A stretch of DNA of 34,289 bases from an uncultured Selenomonas sp. (GTDB taxonomy: Bacteria; Bacillota; Negativicutes; Selenomonadales; Selenomonadaceae), in the NCBI GenBank assembly GCA_905234515.1, contig CAJOIN010000009.1:1-34289 (forward strand). The letters are read 5' to 3'. Positions 24,790 through 32,501 of the stretch are shown one piece after another. The notes under the pieces were generated by a model, which was not told where the DNA came from, ran no database searches, and worked only from the letters and a program-made list of their open reading frames with translations. The number at the start of each line of letters is the position of its first letter. The first letter of the stretch is position 1. The position numbers and the translations under genes are program-made.

Positions 24790-25557
24790 TTAGCCGAAGT
24801 AACCGAATGCGCTGCAAGCTACATAAGCCAAAGCTGCGCCTACCAGCGGAGCAAACACAGGCACCCAAGCATAGCCCCAATCAGAGCCGCCTTTGCCCGG
24901 GATGGGCAGGATAGCATGAGCAATGCGGGGGCCAAGGTCACGGGCGGGGTTCATGGCATAACCAGTAGGGCCGCCGAGAGAGAGGCCAAGAGCCACGATG
25001 AGCATACCCACGATGTAGGGGCCAAAACCGTTGCCCAGGAAGGTGCTGGCAGCAGTCTCTGCGCTGTAACCAAACTTAGCGGAGAATGTCATCCAGATGA
25101 GGAACACCAGGAAGAAGGTTGCGCTGACCTCAGTAATGAAAGCCAGGGCATTGTTGCGGATGGCAGGAGCCGTGCTGAAGATGCCGAGCTTAGCGGCAGG
25201 ATCAGTAGTGCCTTCCCAATGAGCAAGATAAGTAAGCCAAACGATGGTAGCACCGACGATACCGCCGAGGATCTGTACCAAAGAAGTGACGATGAACTGG
25301 TTGAAGGTGTAAACACCAGCCAGAGTCTTAGCCAGCGTAACAGCCGGGTTCAGGTCAGCCTGAGGAGCACCAAAAGTAGTAGCGGTGAAAACACCGAAAG
25401 TAACACCAAATCCCCATCCAAAGGCTATGCAGATCCACCCGCCGCCCACACCTTTAGATTTGTTAAGCGTAAGGTTGGCGCAAACGCCGCAACCAAGAAC
25501 CAAGAGAACCATAGTTCCCAAGAACTCGCCTAAAAGGTTTTCGTAGCCTGTTACCAT
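24790..25557 (-). CDS. glpF: Glycerol uptake facilitator (MIP/aquaporin family)
   Basis: 255 aa; NPA motifs DLNPAVTLAKTLAG and GYAMNPARDLGPRIAHAILPI; GEFLGTMVLLVLGCGV. Confidence 0.94.
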   Translation of the reverse strand: MVTGYENLLGEFLGTMVLLVLGCGVCANLTLNKSKGVGGGWICIAFGWGFGVTFGVFTATTFGAPQADLNPAVTLAKTLAGVYTFNQFIVTSLVQILGGIVGATIVWLTYLAHWEGTTDPAAKLGIFSTAPAIRNNALAFITEVSATFFLVFLIWMTFSAKFGYSAETAASTFLGNGFGPYIVGMLIVALGLSLGGPTGYAMNPARDLGPRIAHAILPIPGKGGSDWGYAWVPVFAPLVGAALAYVACSAFGYFG

Positions 25558-25672: not shown

Positions 25673-27190
<1,518 letters not shown>

Positions 27191-27210
27191 CTATTGATTA
27201 TTTTAAGAAA

Positions 27211-27270
27211 ATTCCGGGTACACCTGGGGCGTTCCCGGGTGCCAAACCAAGGGTGTGAATCACGCCTTGG
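27211..27270. other. Tandem hairpins in PTS IIB-glpK intergenic region
   Basis: CCAAGG(27247-27252)GTG...CACGCCTTGG (to 27270) and an imperfect ACCTGGGG/CCCGGGT hairpin at about 27222-27240. Confidence 0.55.
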
Positions 27271-27288
27271 CCTGATAAGCAGTTTTAA

Positions 27289-27597
27289 TTAATAGTCGCC
27301 CACGATTTTCTGGGCCAGATCCAAGATCTTGTCTGCATCAATATTGGCATAGAGATCCTTCGGAATCACCGCAGACTTCACATTGGGGTACTTCAGCTGA
27401 ATCTCAGGAAGTTCAAAGGAAGACTGGGGAGCCAGGAGGAGCACATCTGCAAATTCTGCAGCCTGCTTGACCTCATTCACCGGGTAGAAGCTGACCGAGC
27501 AGGGATAACCAAGACGGGCAGCCTCACTCTCCATGCGGCGCACCAACAGGTTGGTGGATACGCCAGCGGAGCAGAGCAAAACAATTCTACGAACCAT
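27289..27597 (-). CDS. PTS lactose/cellobiose-type EIIB subunit (orphan)
   Basis: 102 aa; RRIVLLCSAGVSTNLLVRRMESEA (EIIB P-loop with active-site Cys), ADVLLLAPQSSFELPEIQLKYPNVKSAVIPKDLYANIDADKILDLA. Confidence 0.88.
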   Translation of the reverse strand: MVRRIVLLCSAGVSTNLLVRRMESEAARLGYPCSVSFYPVNEVKQAAEFADVLLLAPQSSFELPEIQLKYPNVKSAVIPKDLYANIDADKILDLAQKIVGDY

Positions 27598-27624
27598 TTT
27601 AAAACTCCTTTCACTTGTGGCTTT

Positions 27625-27650
27625 GAAAGCTCCCCTGTCGGGAAGCTTCC
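27625..27650. other. Hairpin in glpC-PTS IIB intergenic region
   Basis: GAAAGCTCCC...GGGAAGCTTC inverted repeat (10 bp with one G-U/mismatch). Confidence 0.55.
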
Positions 27651-27664
27651 AGGGTCTGCCAGTT

Positions 27665-28891
27665 TTACTTCTGGTAGGCCCTTGCTAATATTTCAATCGG
27701 GTGGCAGGTTTTAGCCTGCGTCCCGTGATTGATCTGCATACGGCAGGTACCGCAGTCACAGATGACCTCATTGGCCTTGCTGAGCTTGATGCGCTCAAAG
27801 AGCTTTTCACCAATCTTCATGGAAATATCATATTTATCTTTCTTGAAGCCATAGTTGCCAGAGATGCCGCAGCAGCCTGCGTCAGCCTTCTCCACCTTGA
27901 CCCCCGGCACATCCTTCAAGATATCATAAGCGGGAGTACCAAAGCCCTGGGACTTCAGATGGCAGGGAACATGATAGAGGAGTTCCTCATTCACCGCCTT
28001 GAAGGAAGTATTAAGCTCGCCCTTGCCAGCCAGGATTTCCAAATACTCGAAAGCATCATAGACATTCTGAGCTGCCTCGTGCATTTCCTCTTCATCAAAG
28101 AGTTCTGCATACTCCTGCTTCAGCATCAGAGAGCAACTGGTGCAGCAAGCCACCACAGGAATCCCCTTCTTTTTCCATTCGAGGATGCGGCTCACATTGT
28201 TGTGGGCATGCTCATGGGCCTCATCAAGATACCCCGTTACCACCATGGGGGAACCACAGCAGTTGAACTTCTCATCAACCAGGACTTCAATGCCATTGGC
28301 CTGCATGACCTTCACGAAGGCCACACCTACCTGGGGCTCGTTCTCGTTGATGTAGCAGCCGGGGTAGAACACAACCTTCTTGTCAGAGGGATTCTGCCTC
28401 ATATTCTTGAAAAGCTGATAGAAATTCTGGTCAGCATAGGCCGGCATATCACGCTCACCGGCGATGCCCATCATACCAAATACGCCGAAGGCCTTGCCGA
28501 TTTTCATGCCAAGATTGGCAAAGGTAGCGCCGAAGGGCATCATGCGCACCAACTTGGCCATGCGCTCTCCGTGAGCCAGCATATCATCGTGCTGCGGATG
28601 GGGATTATGCTTGTAATACTCCGCCCTCTGAAGCATGTTCAGAGTGGAAACGGCCACCCCGGAGGGGCAGGCACGGTCACAGGATTTGCAGTTGGAGCAG
28701 AAATCAAGGCTGTCCTCGTAGTCATCCTGGGAGAAGTGCATGCGGCCATGGGCAGGACCCACCAGTTTCGGTCCGCGGTACTCCTTGGAAGCTTCCATCA
28801 CCGGGCAGCTTGACATGCAGGAGGTGCAGGACAGGCAGTGGTCGGCTGTATAAACTGCTTTTTCTTCTTCAAAAATCTTTTCTTCGCTCAT
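27665..28891 (-). CDS. glpC: Anaerobic glycerol-3-phosphate dehydrogenase subunit C
   Basis: CLSCTSCMSSCPV and CSNCKSCDRACPSGV 4Fe-4S motifs; two CCG domains (CCGSPMVVTGYLDEA, CCGISGNYGFKKDKYD). Confidence 0.93.
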   Translation of the reverse strand: MSEEKIFEEEKAVYTADHCLSCTSCMSSCPVMEASKEYRGPKLVGPAHGRMHFSQDDYEDSLDFCSNCKSCDRACPSGVAVSTLNMLQRAEYYKHNPHPQHDDMLAHGERMAKLVRMMPFGATFANLGMKIGKAFGVFGMMGIAGERDMPAYADQNFYQLFKNMRQNPSDKKVVFYPGCYINENEPQVGVAFVKVMQANGIEVLVDEKFNCCGSPMVVTGYLDEAHEHAHNNVSRILEWKKKGIPVVACCTSCSLMLKQEYAELFDEEEMHEAAQNVYDAFEYLEILAGKGELNTSFKAVNEELLYHVPCHLKSQGFGTPAYDILKDVPGVKVEKADAGCCGISGNYGFKKDKYDISMKIGEKLFERIKLSKANEVICDCGTCRMQINHGTQAKTCHPIEILARAYQK

Positions 28892-28912: not shown

Positions 28913-30160
28913 TTACATCTGTGCGGCTTTATAGCCGGAAGCCAGAGCCACGCCATTGCCGGAATGCTCGAAGCAAAGATCGTAGCCACCCAGGTCACGT
29001 CCGACAACATACACATTTTCAAGCACAAGCTTGCCATTTTCATCTACAGGACGAAGTTTTTCGTCCGTAAGCACGCCAGTCTTGGCATATCCCTGGGGTT
29101 TGTTGGAGAAAAGCTCTGCATTGCTCCAGTTTTCCTCGCCCTTGACGAAGAACACCGGCAGACCGAAGACCTCTTCCCTGGGCTGCTCGAAATCACGCAT
29201 AGTGATGCCGCCGCTATAGAAGCCGCCAGTAGCCAGGATGTACTTGTCAGCAGTGTAGACCTTCTGGCGGATACCTGCCTGGGCAATGACACCTGTGCAA
29301 CGCCCGCCCTCTTCTCTTGCTCCAATGACCTTGGTGTTCTCAACGAATTCCACACCATTGTCCTTGAGTGCCTGACGGAAAATAGCCTGCAGGCGCAAGC
29401 CATTGGTGGAAGGCGGCAAGCCCGTAGTCTCCACAACATCGGTCTCCATGCGGCTGGCTACAGTGAGGTAGCAGGCATGGCCGCTGGTGCCCAGAATCTG
29501 GGGAACAATCAGCACTGTCTCAGTCTGCCCCTTGTAGCTCTTGAGCTGCTCCGTAAAGGAATCCACTCCCTTGGGAGTATCCAGCCAGCGGGCCACGTCC
29601 AAAATAGTCAGGTCACGGCCACCTTCAATGCCCGTATCAATTTCCACGGATTCATAGGAGAGCTCCTCTCCCATGGCCTTCTTGAGGTTCTGGATCATGA
29701 TATCTGCGTAGAAGTCCTTGAGGCCTTTCACGCCCACAACCACGACCTTCTTCTTGCCCACAAAGGACTCGCTGCCGGACAGGGAATGGGGTGCCAGGCA
29801 GGTGGGCTTCAAAGTGCCCACAGCCGTGGGAACCATCATCTGGCTGTTCAGTGAACCGTGATAAGGCAGGTGATATTTCTTGGCAAAGGCACAGAAGAAC
29901 TCCACGGCCTTCTCCACATAATCTGCCCCAATCTTGCTGTATGGATGGTCAGCAGGCAGGCTCTTGATTCCCTCAAGGGGTGATTTCACAGCCTTGTGCT
30001 CATCATCAAAGGCTAAAATATCGATAAGCCCGCTATTTAATGAAAGGGAGCTGGCGCCATAGGTCAACAGCGTCACAGACTTTCCCTGCTGTGCGCTGGC
30101 CAGAGCTGCCGTCATACCGGCCACCCCGCTGCCTATGACTATGACATCTGAATGCTTCAT
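28913..30160 (-). CDS. glpB: Anaerobic glycerol-3-phosphate dehydrogenase subunit B
   Basis: DVIVIGSGVAGMTAALASAQQGKSVTLLT; between glpA and glpC; C-terminal VYVVGRDLGGYDLCFEHSGNGVALASGYKAA. Confidence 0.93.
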   Translation of the reverse strand: MKHSDVIVIGSGVAGMTAALASAQQGKSVTLLTYGASSLSLNSGLIDILAFDDEHKAVKSPLEGIKSLPADHPYSKIGADYVEKAVEFFCAFAKKYHLPYHGSLNSQMMVPTAVGTLKPTCLAPHSLSGSESFVGKKKVVVVGVKGLKDFYADIMIQNLKKAMGEELSYESVEIDTGIEGGRDLTILDVARWLDTPKGVDSFTEQLKSYKGQTETVLIVPQILGTSGHACYLTVASRMETDVVETTGLPPSTNGLRLQAIFRQALKDNGVEFVENTKVIGAREEGGRCTGVIAQAGIRQKVYTADKYILATGGFYSGGITMRDFEQPREEVFGLPVFFVKGEENWSNAELFSNKPQGYAKTGVLTDEKLRPVDENGKLVLENVYVVGRDLGGYDLCFEHSGNGVALASGYKAAQM

Positions 30161-31770
30161 GCCTCTTCTCCCCCATTCACGTTAAATGATAATTCGTATA
30201 GTGCCCTGGTCATTTCCATCTCACGAATGGTACGGCCCAAAAGAACCGGACGGATGCCCTTCCAGCGACCCTGGAGGAACTCCTTCATCTGGCCGATGGA
30301 ATCCCTGGCAGCCTCATCCCTGCCCACCTTGGCAAAGACACTGGCGCTGCGAAGAGCACAGAAGTTGGCCTGGCAGGTGCCCATGCCAAGACGGGTGCGG
30401 CGGCGGATATCGTTGATGCGGAAGCTGCTGAGCTCCTTGGCCATCTCTTCCACCTCACCACGGGTGACATTCTCGCACTCGCAGAGCAGCTCGCGCTTCT
30501 CGGGATCCTTGGCCAAAGTCTCGGTAACCCTGGCAAAACGCTCTGGGCCCAAACGGGTAGCTGCAAGATCCGTACCGTAAGCCGGATAGTACTTGCGGGC
30601 AGCCTTCTTGGCTTCCTCAGAAACCTCAGGCACCAAAGGCTCTTCTGCAGTACGGCATTTTTCCTTGTTGCCCAGCTTGGCGCAAACCTGATCTGCCATC
30701 TTCTCTGCCATGAGACGGTAAGTTGTGAACTTGCCGCCTACGATGGTGAACATGCCTTTCAGGCTGTCCTGAGTCTCGTGGTCCACGATGGCAAAGCCAC
30801 GGGAAGCACTGCGACCAGAAGCACCTCCAGGAGGTATATAAAGAGGACGGGAACCGGCAAAAGCACGAAGCATACGGTAATTTCTCAAGTTTTCAAAGGT
30901 CATTTCGCCGATGGAGAGCAGATGTTCCACTTCCTCACGGGAAGTGCTGGTGTCCTCAGCGGTAGGCACGCTCATGGAAGTAGTGCCCAGGATAGTGATA
31001 GAGCCATGGGGCACGAAAATATCACCATCGGAGGATTTGTGCAGGCGATTCACCACATGGTTGGTGATGCGCTGGTTGAAAGCAATCAAGGTGCCCTTAT
31101 CCGGCTGAACCCCTACTTCCAGGCCTGCCAGCTCGGCCACCTTGCCAGCCCAGCCACCAGCAGCATTCACCAGGATGTCACAACCGATTTCGTACTCTTC
31201 TCCGCTGAAATAATCACGGACCTTGATGCCGTGAACTTCATTGTTTTCCTTGATGACTCCTACTACCTCCGTGTAGGTCTTCACCCGGCCGCCGTAACGC
31301 TTGGCAGAATCGACGTTCTGCCAGGACATGCGAAAGCCATCGATGGCCGCATCCGGCACCAGATAAGCAGAAACCACATGTTTGGAGAGGAGAGGCTCCA
31401 GCTCGAAAGCCTTCTGCAAGGTAATGGGCGTAGCTTCAATGCCACTGTCCTTGCACCCTTGCACCCACTGCTGCTCATAATCAGGATCATCACTGTCCAA
31501 GCGGACGAACATGCCGCCTGATGCCTCTACGCAGGACTTGCCAATCTTGCGCAGAATCATGTTCTCGATAATGCACTCCTTGGCAGCCTCCTGATCCTTT
31601 ACTGCATAGCGGCCACCGCTGTGCAGCAGGCCATGATAACGGGAACTGGCACCGTTCACCAGGTCCTGTTTCTCCACGAGCATGACGTCCACACCACGCA
31701 TCGCCAAGTCTCTCAGGATACCTACACCGGTAGCGCCGCCGCCGATAACAACGACTGTTGCTTTCTCCAT
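30157..31770 (-). CDS. glpA: Anaerobic glycerol-3-phosphate dehydrogenase subunit A
   Basis: VVVIGGGATGVGILRDLAMRGVDVMLVEKQDLVNGASSRYHGLLHSGGRYAVKD; C-terminal CECENVTRGEVEEMAKELSSFRINDIRRRTRLGMGTCQANFC. Start set at MEKATVVV after AAGGAGAG. Confidence 0.94.
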   Translation of the reverse strand: MEKATVVVIGGGATGVGILRDLAMRGVDVMLVEKQDLVNGASSRYHGLLHSGGRYAVKDQEAAKECIIENMILRKIGKSCVEASGGMFVRLDSDDPDYEQQWVQGCKDSGIEATPITLQKAFELEPLLSKHVVSAYLVPDAAIDGFRMSWQNVDSAKRYGGRVKTYTEVVGVIKENNEVHGIKVRDYFSGEEYEIGCDILVNAAGGWAGKVAELAGLEVGVQPDKGTLIAFNQRITNHVVNRLHKSSDGDIFVPHGSITILGTTSMSVPTAEDTSTSREEVEHLLSIGEMTFENLRNYRMLRAFAGSRPLYIPPGGASGRSASRGFAIVDHETQDSLKGMFTIVGGKFTTYRLMAEKMADQVCAKLGNKEKCRTAEEPLVPEVSEEAKKAARKYYPAYGTDLAATRLGPERFARVTETLAKDPEKRELLCECENVTRGEVEEMAKELSSFRINDIRRRTRLGMGTCQANFCALRSASVFAKVGRDEAARDSIGQMKEFLQGRWKGIRPVLLGRTIREMEMTRALYELSFNVNGGEEA

Positions 31771-31948
31771 CGTGAAACTCTCCTTTTTAAGCTTAAACTG
31801 ACCACCAAAGAAACTCATACAGTTTCAAATAAGCAATCATTGCACCCTTTGGAATTTACACGCAATTTATACTTCAATACAAAGAGTGTAGTCTTCGCTA
31901 TTAATTCATCACATTGGGCACGTCATAACATTTATTAACGCTCCCAAC

Positions 31949-32183: not shown

Positions 32184-32501
32184 GTGACAAGAGAAGATTA
32201 TGTAAAGTCCTTGATTAAGGCACGCGGCTACACCTTCAAGGCCTTTGCCCAGGAAATTAATATGCCTTATACCACGCTGCTTTCCATACTTAATGGCTCC
32301 ATTGGCGGAGCAGCCATGGACAACGTACTGCGCATCAGCCAGGCCCTGGACTTCACCATCGAGGAACTGAATGAGATTTCTCAGGAACAACCTGGACCTA
32401 CACCAAACGCCCCTGATGATGATGAAGTACTGCTAAAGCTTATCCACAACCTGCCAGAAGAAAAGAAACGGGCATTAAAAATCCTGCTGACCAATCGTTA
32501 A
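32184..32501 (+). CDS. XRE-like helix-turn-helix transcriptional regulator
   Basis: 105 aa; GYTFKAFAQEINMPYTTLLSILNGSIGGAAMDNVLRISQALDFTIEEL; preceded by GGAGGTG and TATAAT at 32136-32141. Start is GTG or adjacent ACA/ATG choice uncertain. Confidence 0.82.
   Translation: MTREDYVKSLIKARGYTFKAFAQEINMPYTTLLSILNGSIGGAAMDNVLRISQALDFTIEELNEISQEQPGPTPNAPDDDEVLLKLIHNLPEEKKRALKILLTNR

Follow-up and report, generated by a model that had tools for sequence, protein, structure and literature searches.

Why should a lone EIIB protein of the PTS be encoded inside an operon for the use of glycerol? The question is raised by a stretch of 34,289 nucleotides from an uncultured Selenomonas sp. (contig CAJOIN010000009.1, here called the window), of which a preliminary description, made from the letters alone, had said that a complete lactose/cellobiose-type EIIB lies between glpC and glpK, that no gene for IIA, IIC or HPr accompanies it, and that the protein could be a sensor of PTS flux rather than part of a transporter. 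IIB proteins hand phosphate to a sugar via IIC, and there are known cases in which a regulator receives it instead. Glycerol use under PTS control is usually controlled via glycerol kinase (GlpK), on which IIA-Glc acts in enterics and HPr in Gram-positives.

We propose that the product of this gene, here called IIB-Glp, belongs to a transporter-less PTS branch, EI-HPr-IIA(lac)-IIB(Glp), that regulates the use of glycerol and dihydroxyacetone (DHA), a reading to which we give about even chances.

The IIB Gene and Its Product

The gene (27289..27597, minus strand) is an open reading frame with an ATG start, a proper stop and an AAAGGAG ribosome-binding site about 7 nt 5' of it, and its 102-aa product, which includes RRIVLLCSAGVSTNLLVRR, matches PF02302 (PTS_IIB) with 40.8 bits (cut-off 23.6) over profile positions 1-89 of 90. 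Among relatives of solved structure the E. coli IIB-chitobiose/cellobiose is the best by sequence (E ~1e-14), and with the AlphaFold model of IIB-Glp (pLDDT 88.4) the top Foldseek match is 1iib, the E. coli IIB-cellobiose (TM 0.92, E 2.9e-8, 36% identity). By its Pfam score, its P-loop cysteine and its fold, IIB-Glp is a PTS lactose/chitobiose EIIB, and Cys9, in the P-loop CSAGVST, is its predicted phosphorylation site. These matches, together with the dN/dS values given below, rule out a chance or misannotated ORF.

IIB-Glp resembles E. coli ChbB (1iib, 1h9c, 2wy2) in fold, length and P-loop Cys, with 35-37% identity. Unlike ChbB, however, it has no adjoining IIA or IIC, is encoded in a glycerol operon, and falls short of the curated scores of PRK10499 (62.1 vs 157 needed) and TIGR00853 (51.6 vs 110 needed), so that it is not filed as ChbB. 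The two also differ in the YGxxDG motif, the second Gly of which is missing in all 18 aligned IIB-Glp orthologues and kept in six of the seven aligned chb-like IIBs.

The residues C9, G12, S14 and T15 (CxxGxST) are invariant in the same 18 orthologues. Measured against the window sequence, and where dS is measurable, dN/dS of the IIB is 0.03-0.12, a sign of strong purifying selection on a functional gene; GlpK gives similar values (0.03-0.12) and GlpB mostly higher ones (0.10-0.34 beyond the nearest relative). A redox role for Cys33 was considered and rejected, because this residue is also found in most aligned chb-type IIBs and is thus not specific to IIB-Glp.

The Glp Operon of the Window

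The window has the gene order glpA-B-C-IIB-K-F, all on the minus strand. The subunits of anaerobic glycerol-3-phosphate dehydrogenase are encoded by glpA (subunit A, 30157..31818; TIGR03377, 696.9 bits, cut-off 552.8), glpB (subunit B, 28913..30160; TIGR03378, 234 bits, cut-off 174) and glpC (Fe-S subunit, 27665..28891; TIGR03379, 301 bits, cut-off 280; PRK11168, 432 bits, cut-off 278), and glycerol kinase by glpK (25673..27175; TIGR01311, 753.8 bits, cut-off 590). The last gene, at 24790..25557, encodes a glpF-like channel of the MIP family that passes the Pfam cut-off alone (PF00230, 108 bits, cut-off 25) and reaches no NCBIfam equivalog cut-off. The ORF, the PF02302 match and the neighbours agree with the preliminary description in placing a complete EIIB between same-strand glpC and glpK, and the stated lack of IIA, IIC and HPr genes is borne out for the three families covered, as profile searches of the contig, which is the whole window, gave no match to PF02255 (IIA-lac), PF02378 (IIC) or PF00381 (HPr). 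In the relatives compared, 15-114 bp separate glpC from IIB, a spacing compatible with a single transcript.

Stable hairpins lie on both sides of the IIB gene (27176-27288 and 27598-27664) and also between glpK and glpF. In the IIB-glpK intercistronic region (27176..27288, minus strand) folding is well above that of shuffles in the window strain (z about -3 to -4) and not in S. ruminantium, one of the species in which the hairpins around IIB are absent; in others they are strong. We rejected the idea that the IIB-glpK gap holds a conserved RNA element, as the hairpins vary by species and an Rfam scan gave no family at gathering score. Upstream of glpA, and divergent from it, lies an XRE-type HTH gene (32184-32501, plus strand) that is a candidate glp regulator.

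Distribution and Gene Order in Relatives

Orthologues were sought in 81 related genomes, in 189 genomes of the family and in 381 genomes of the class. IIB-Glp is carried by 22 of the 189 family genomes, in eight genera and with 54-98% identity. Conservation of the glp-linked IIB is confined to one family, since all carriers among the 381 class genomes belong to that of the window, and in this set a clear step separates the last IIB-Glp orthologue (168 bits) from the first chb-type IIB (103 bits). The window protein is 33-39% identical to the chb-like IIBs of its own family, and in a tree the IIB-Glp sequences form one clade apart from the chb-type IIBs.

The order glpC-IIB-glpK is kept in 20 of the 22 carriers and in most of the eight genera, and thus beyond close strains, as the sensor idea of the preliminary description requires. 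The full order glpA-B-C-IIB-K-F is found in nine named Selenomonas/Veillonellaceae records, which include S. ruminantium HD4, S. ruminantium S137 and S. bovis DSM 23594. This recurrence across family genomes and named records rules out a strain-specific insertion. In carrier G019 the contig starts at IIB and continues as IIB-glpK-glpF-dhaK-dhaL-dhaM, and in carrier G036 dhaK-dhaL directly follow IIB, with glpABC on a separate contig. At the carrier loci examined, no IIA or IIC adjoins a IIB-Glp orthologue, and the company is always that of glp or dha genes. The constant companions of IIB-Glp are hence glpK, glpABC and, twice, DHA-kinase genes, which is to say the glycerol and DHA routes to DHAP; the link to DHA kinase in G019 and G036 broadens the preliminary description, which had not foreseen dihydroxyacetone genes.

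The glpABC-K-F genes also occur without IIB in at least five family genomes, two of which (G032 and G046) have a GlpK that is 84-87% identical, and the IIB is therefore dispensable for the pathway. From gene content and order, it appears that in Selenomonas and its relatives a IIB has moved, without a transporter, into an operon for glycerol use.

PTS Partners Elsewhere in the Genomes

The preliminary description had called the IIB an orphan, which holds at the locus but not genome-wide. The window genome has HPr on contig C80, near a 575-aa ORF of EI size that also has an HPr match, and it has one lac-type IIA, within a complete chb-type IIA-IIB-IIC set on contig C24. This chb-type IIA could phosphorylate IIB-Glp.

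A lac-type IIA is present in all 22 carriers vs 16 of 32 sampled non-carriers (Fisher p 3.6e-5, kinship ignored) and, among glpC-bearing genomes, in 21 of 21 carriers vs six of 12 non-carriers (p 8e-4, kinship likewise ignored); the count leaves out 16 genomes picked for having a chb-type IIB, and the co-occurrence is partly a matter of shared ancestry. In each of the carriers G047 and G081 the sole chb-like IIA stands alone and a chb-type IIB was not found, the other small IIBs being unmatched as chb-type or part of another set; nor do the PF02378 matches of G047 include a chb-like IIC. Lone chb-like IIAs occur in several carriers and are missing from several others, the window genome (G000) included, and in a tree they are spread, with no single clade of dedicated partners. 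One dedicated orphan IIA for all carriers accordingly finds no support; with an IIA in every carrier and lone IIAs that do not form one clade, a donor seems always to be at hand, although not always the same one.

Glycerol Kinase and the Question of the Target

In Gram-positive GlpK the histidine phosphorylated by HPr (His232) has a role in activation (PMC3146418). A loop comparison made with 3g25 and 1bo5 shows that it is absent in the window GlpK, which has -SV vs YHF in S. aureus, and no carrier GlpK1 that we viewed has a His at this position. The GlpKs of non-carriers lack it too, however, so that IIB is not a necessary replacement for the histidine. A search for carrier-specific residues in GlpK, GlpA, GlpB, GlpC and GlpF found none, and the sequences thus do not single out GlpK. 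The sensor proposed in the preliminary description is favoured by the gene order, the invariant Cys, the strong selection on the gene and the carriers G047 and G081, in which no chb-type IIB was found, and is thereby supported in part, short of proof. As non-carrier GlpKs are also without the histidine and no GlpK residue tracks IIB, GlpK as the direct target stays a guess, the leading one but distinctly tentative, and a transcription factor or another product of the operon is about equally open.

In several relatives a second glycerol kinase gene directly follows glpF (L080 11169-12662; L045 9022-10509; L084 9087-10613; L091 11114-12610), its product being 53-54% identical and having GNQQ in place of the loop GDQQ.

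The EII proteins known to contact GlpK are IIA-Glc and a fructose-type EIIA of Klebsiella; according to the authors of the Klebsiella study, binding to GlpK had been reported for no further EIIA from beyond the glucose family (PMC5770620). A IIB acting on GlpK would therefore be new. Our literature searches found no report of a IIB with GlpK and none of a glp-linked IIB in Selenomonas.

Proposed Mechanism and Comparison With Known Systems

We suggest that IIB-Glp is a PTS phosphocarrier that evolution has taken out of sugar transport and left without a dedicated IIC. Phosphate would pass from EI to HPr, from there to a chb-type IIA and finally to Cys9 of IIB-Glp. Import of PTS sugars would lower the phosphorylation of IIB-Glp, and this change would adjust the dissimilation of glycerol and, in some relatives, of dihydroxyacetone. 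The likeliest direct target would be glycerol kinase, which stands at the gated first step and in this genome is without the histidine used by HPr. Most likely, then, IIB-Glp reports sugar supply to glycerol metabolism. The evidence, which is at the level of sequence, lies in the fold, the Cys, the place in the operon, the selection, and the presence in the genome of HPr, an EI-like ORF and an IIA; the transfer of phosphate from IIA to IIB, the regulatory output and the target are what we infer from it.

Parts of this scheme have parallels. B. subtilis SacX has a sensory role; it is a membrane-bound EIIBC from the glucose family, unlike IIB-Glp, which is soluble, lac-type and without IIC. The IIB of SacX is reported to be phosphorylated by IIAs of other systems, as we propose for IIB-Glp (PMC6148471). 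In Gram-positives, too, the PTS phosphorylation state controls glycerol kinase (PMC3146418), which is our hypothesis for IIB-Glp, but the window GlpK is without the target His, and a IIB takes the place of HPr as the proposed messenger. IIA-Glc of enterics and KPN00353 of Klebsiella (PMC5770620) are sugar-specific PTS subunits that act on GlpK, as IIB-Glp is hypothesised to do, but these are IIA proteins, whereas IIB-Glp is a IIB by Pfam and fold; moreover, KPN00353 is a fructose/mannitol-type EIIA whose locus also holds EIIB and EIIC, unlike that of IIB-Glp. A phosphorelay that ends without a sugar transporter, as proposed here, is found in the regulatory PTS of Brucella, which belongs to a different lineage (PMC2937029).

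Alternative Explanations

IIB-Glp could instead act on transcription, by binding, phosphorylating or dephosphorylating a glp regulator such as the divergent XRE-type protein or a remote one of PRD type. PRD regulators are common targets of IIB proteins, the window genome has long ORFs with PF02302 that by their look are candidates of the BglG/MtlR type, and a IIB-ROK protein occurs in the family. Many relatives retain the XRE-type gene upstream of glpA, but they do so both with and without IIB. The XRE-type gene has no PRD match, IIB itself has no linked regulator gene, and we regard this explanation as rather unlikely. It is less likely still that IIB-Glp has remained in sugar transport, passing phosphate to a remote IIC, chb-like or other. 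It has the fold and the P-loop of a working IIB, and a chb-type IIA and IIC are at hand on C24; that IIC, however, already has an adjacent IIB, the second Gly of YGxxDG is missing in all 18 orthologues, and IIB-Glp stays with glp or dha genes and was never found beside a IIC. As no relative has a IIC at this locus, and as the PF02378 matches of carrier G047 include no chb-type one, a transport role is improbable.

The dha genes raise another thought, namely that IIB-Glp takes part in DHA phosphorylation, receiving phosphate from DhaKLM or giving it to them and so tuning the two routes to DHAP. In G036 it lies directly upstream of dhaK-dhaL and in G019 in one run with glpK-glpF-dhaK-dhaL-dhaM, but in most carriers DhaK is distant or on another contig, and a lac-type IIB does not usually pair with a mannose-type IIA such as DhaM. 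A DhaK match is lacking in carriers G042 and G208, which rejects DhaKLM as a strict partner, and even a looser involvement seems to us quite improbable. That the IIB is a non-functional passenger, landed in the operon by chance, would fit its absence from several glp operons of the family, but against dN/dS of 0.03-0.12, an invariant active site and a position conserved in most carriers we consider it very improbable indeed.

Lone Lac-Type Subunits in the Family

Lac-type PTS subunits stand alone elsewhere in the family. Lone IIA genes adjoin those for Gfo/Idh/MocA dehydrogenases, xylose-isomerase-like proteins and MFS sugar transporters in inositol-type operons (L172 3286-3603; L178 2733-3050; L226 3005-3322; L231 2963-3274; L235 3157-3486), the neighbours being Pfam-scanned in L172 and recognised by sequence likeness in the other four; no IIB or IIC was found near the IIAs of these five loci. 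Another IIA gene (L222 2166-2498) is flanked by those for a GguB-type monosaccharide ABC permease and an FGGY kinase, one similar to it (L163 5709-6032) follows an ABC permease, and a lone one in G001 (L154 7011-7370) diverges from the gene of a Firmicute-type fructose-1,6-bisphosphatase. A protein of about 470 aa that joins a PTS_IIB domain, active Cys included, and a ROK domain is encoded in two genomes (L269 4235-5662; L270 1568-2968); its N-terminal part matches no named family, and chb-type PTS genes are nearby. The joining of IIB and ROK domains indicates that IIB modules are used outside transport in this family. Lone chb-like IIBs of genus g12 were rejected as further cases, since on a wider view most have a chb-type IIC/IIA nearby.

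The pattern suggests that soluble lac-type PTS subunits serve as local regulators in the family. It is conceivable, though we think it unlikely, that in Selenomonadaceae a transporter-less lac-type PTS branch forms a carbon-priority network, in which orphan IIAs and IIBs, placed singly in operons for non-PTS substrates, inform the kinase or permease encoded there of PTS flux. Such a network, with a IIB in glycerol/DHA operons and IIAs both in those of inositol type and next to an FGGY kinase with a sugar ABC transporter, would parallel IIA-Glc in enterics and HPr in Gram-positives.

Rumen Selenomonas combine a GlpK that lacks the HPr site with a IIB that is fixed in the glp operon. If the messenger is this IIB, sugars would be given priority over glycerol in a third way, evolved independently of the other two, and the control would be the first by a IIB in the literature that we found. 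The scatter of transporter-less lac-type PTS subunits over these genomes would also become easier to understand.
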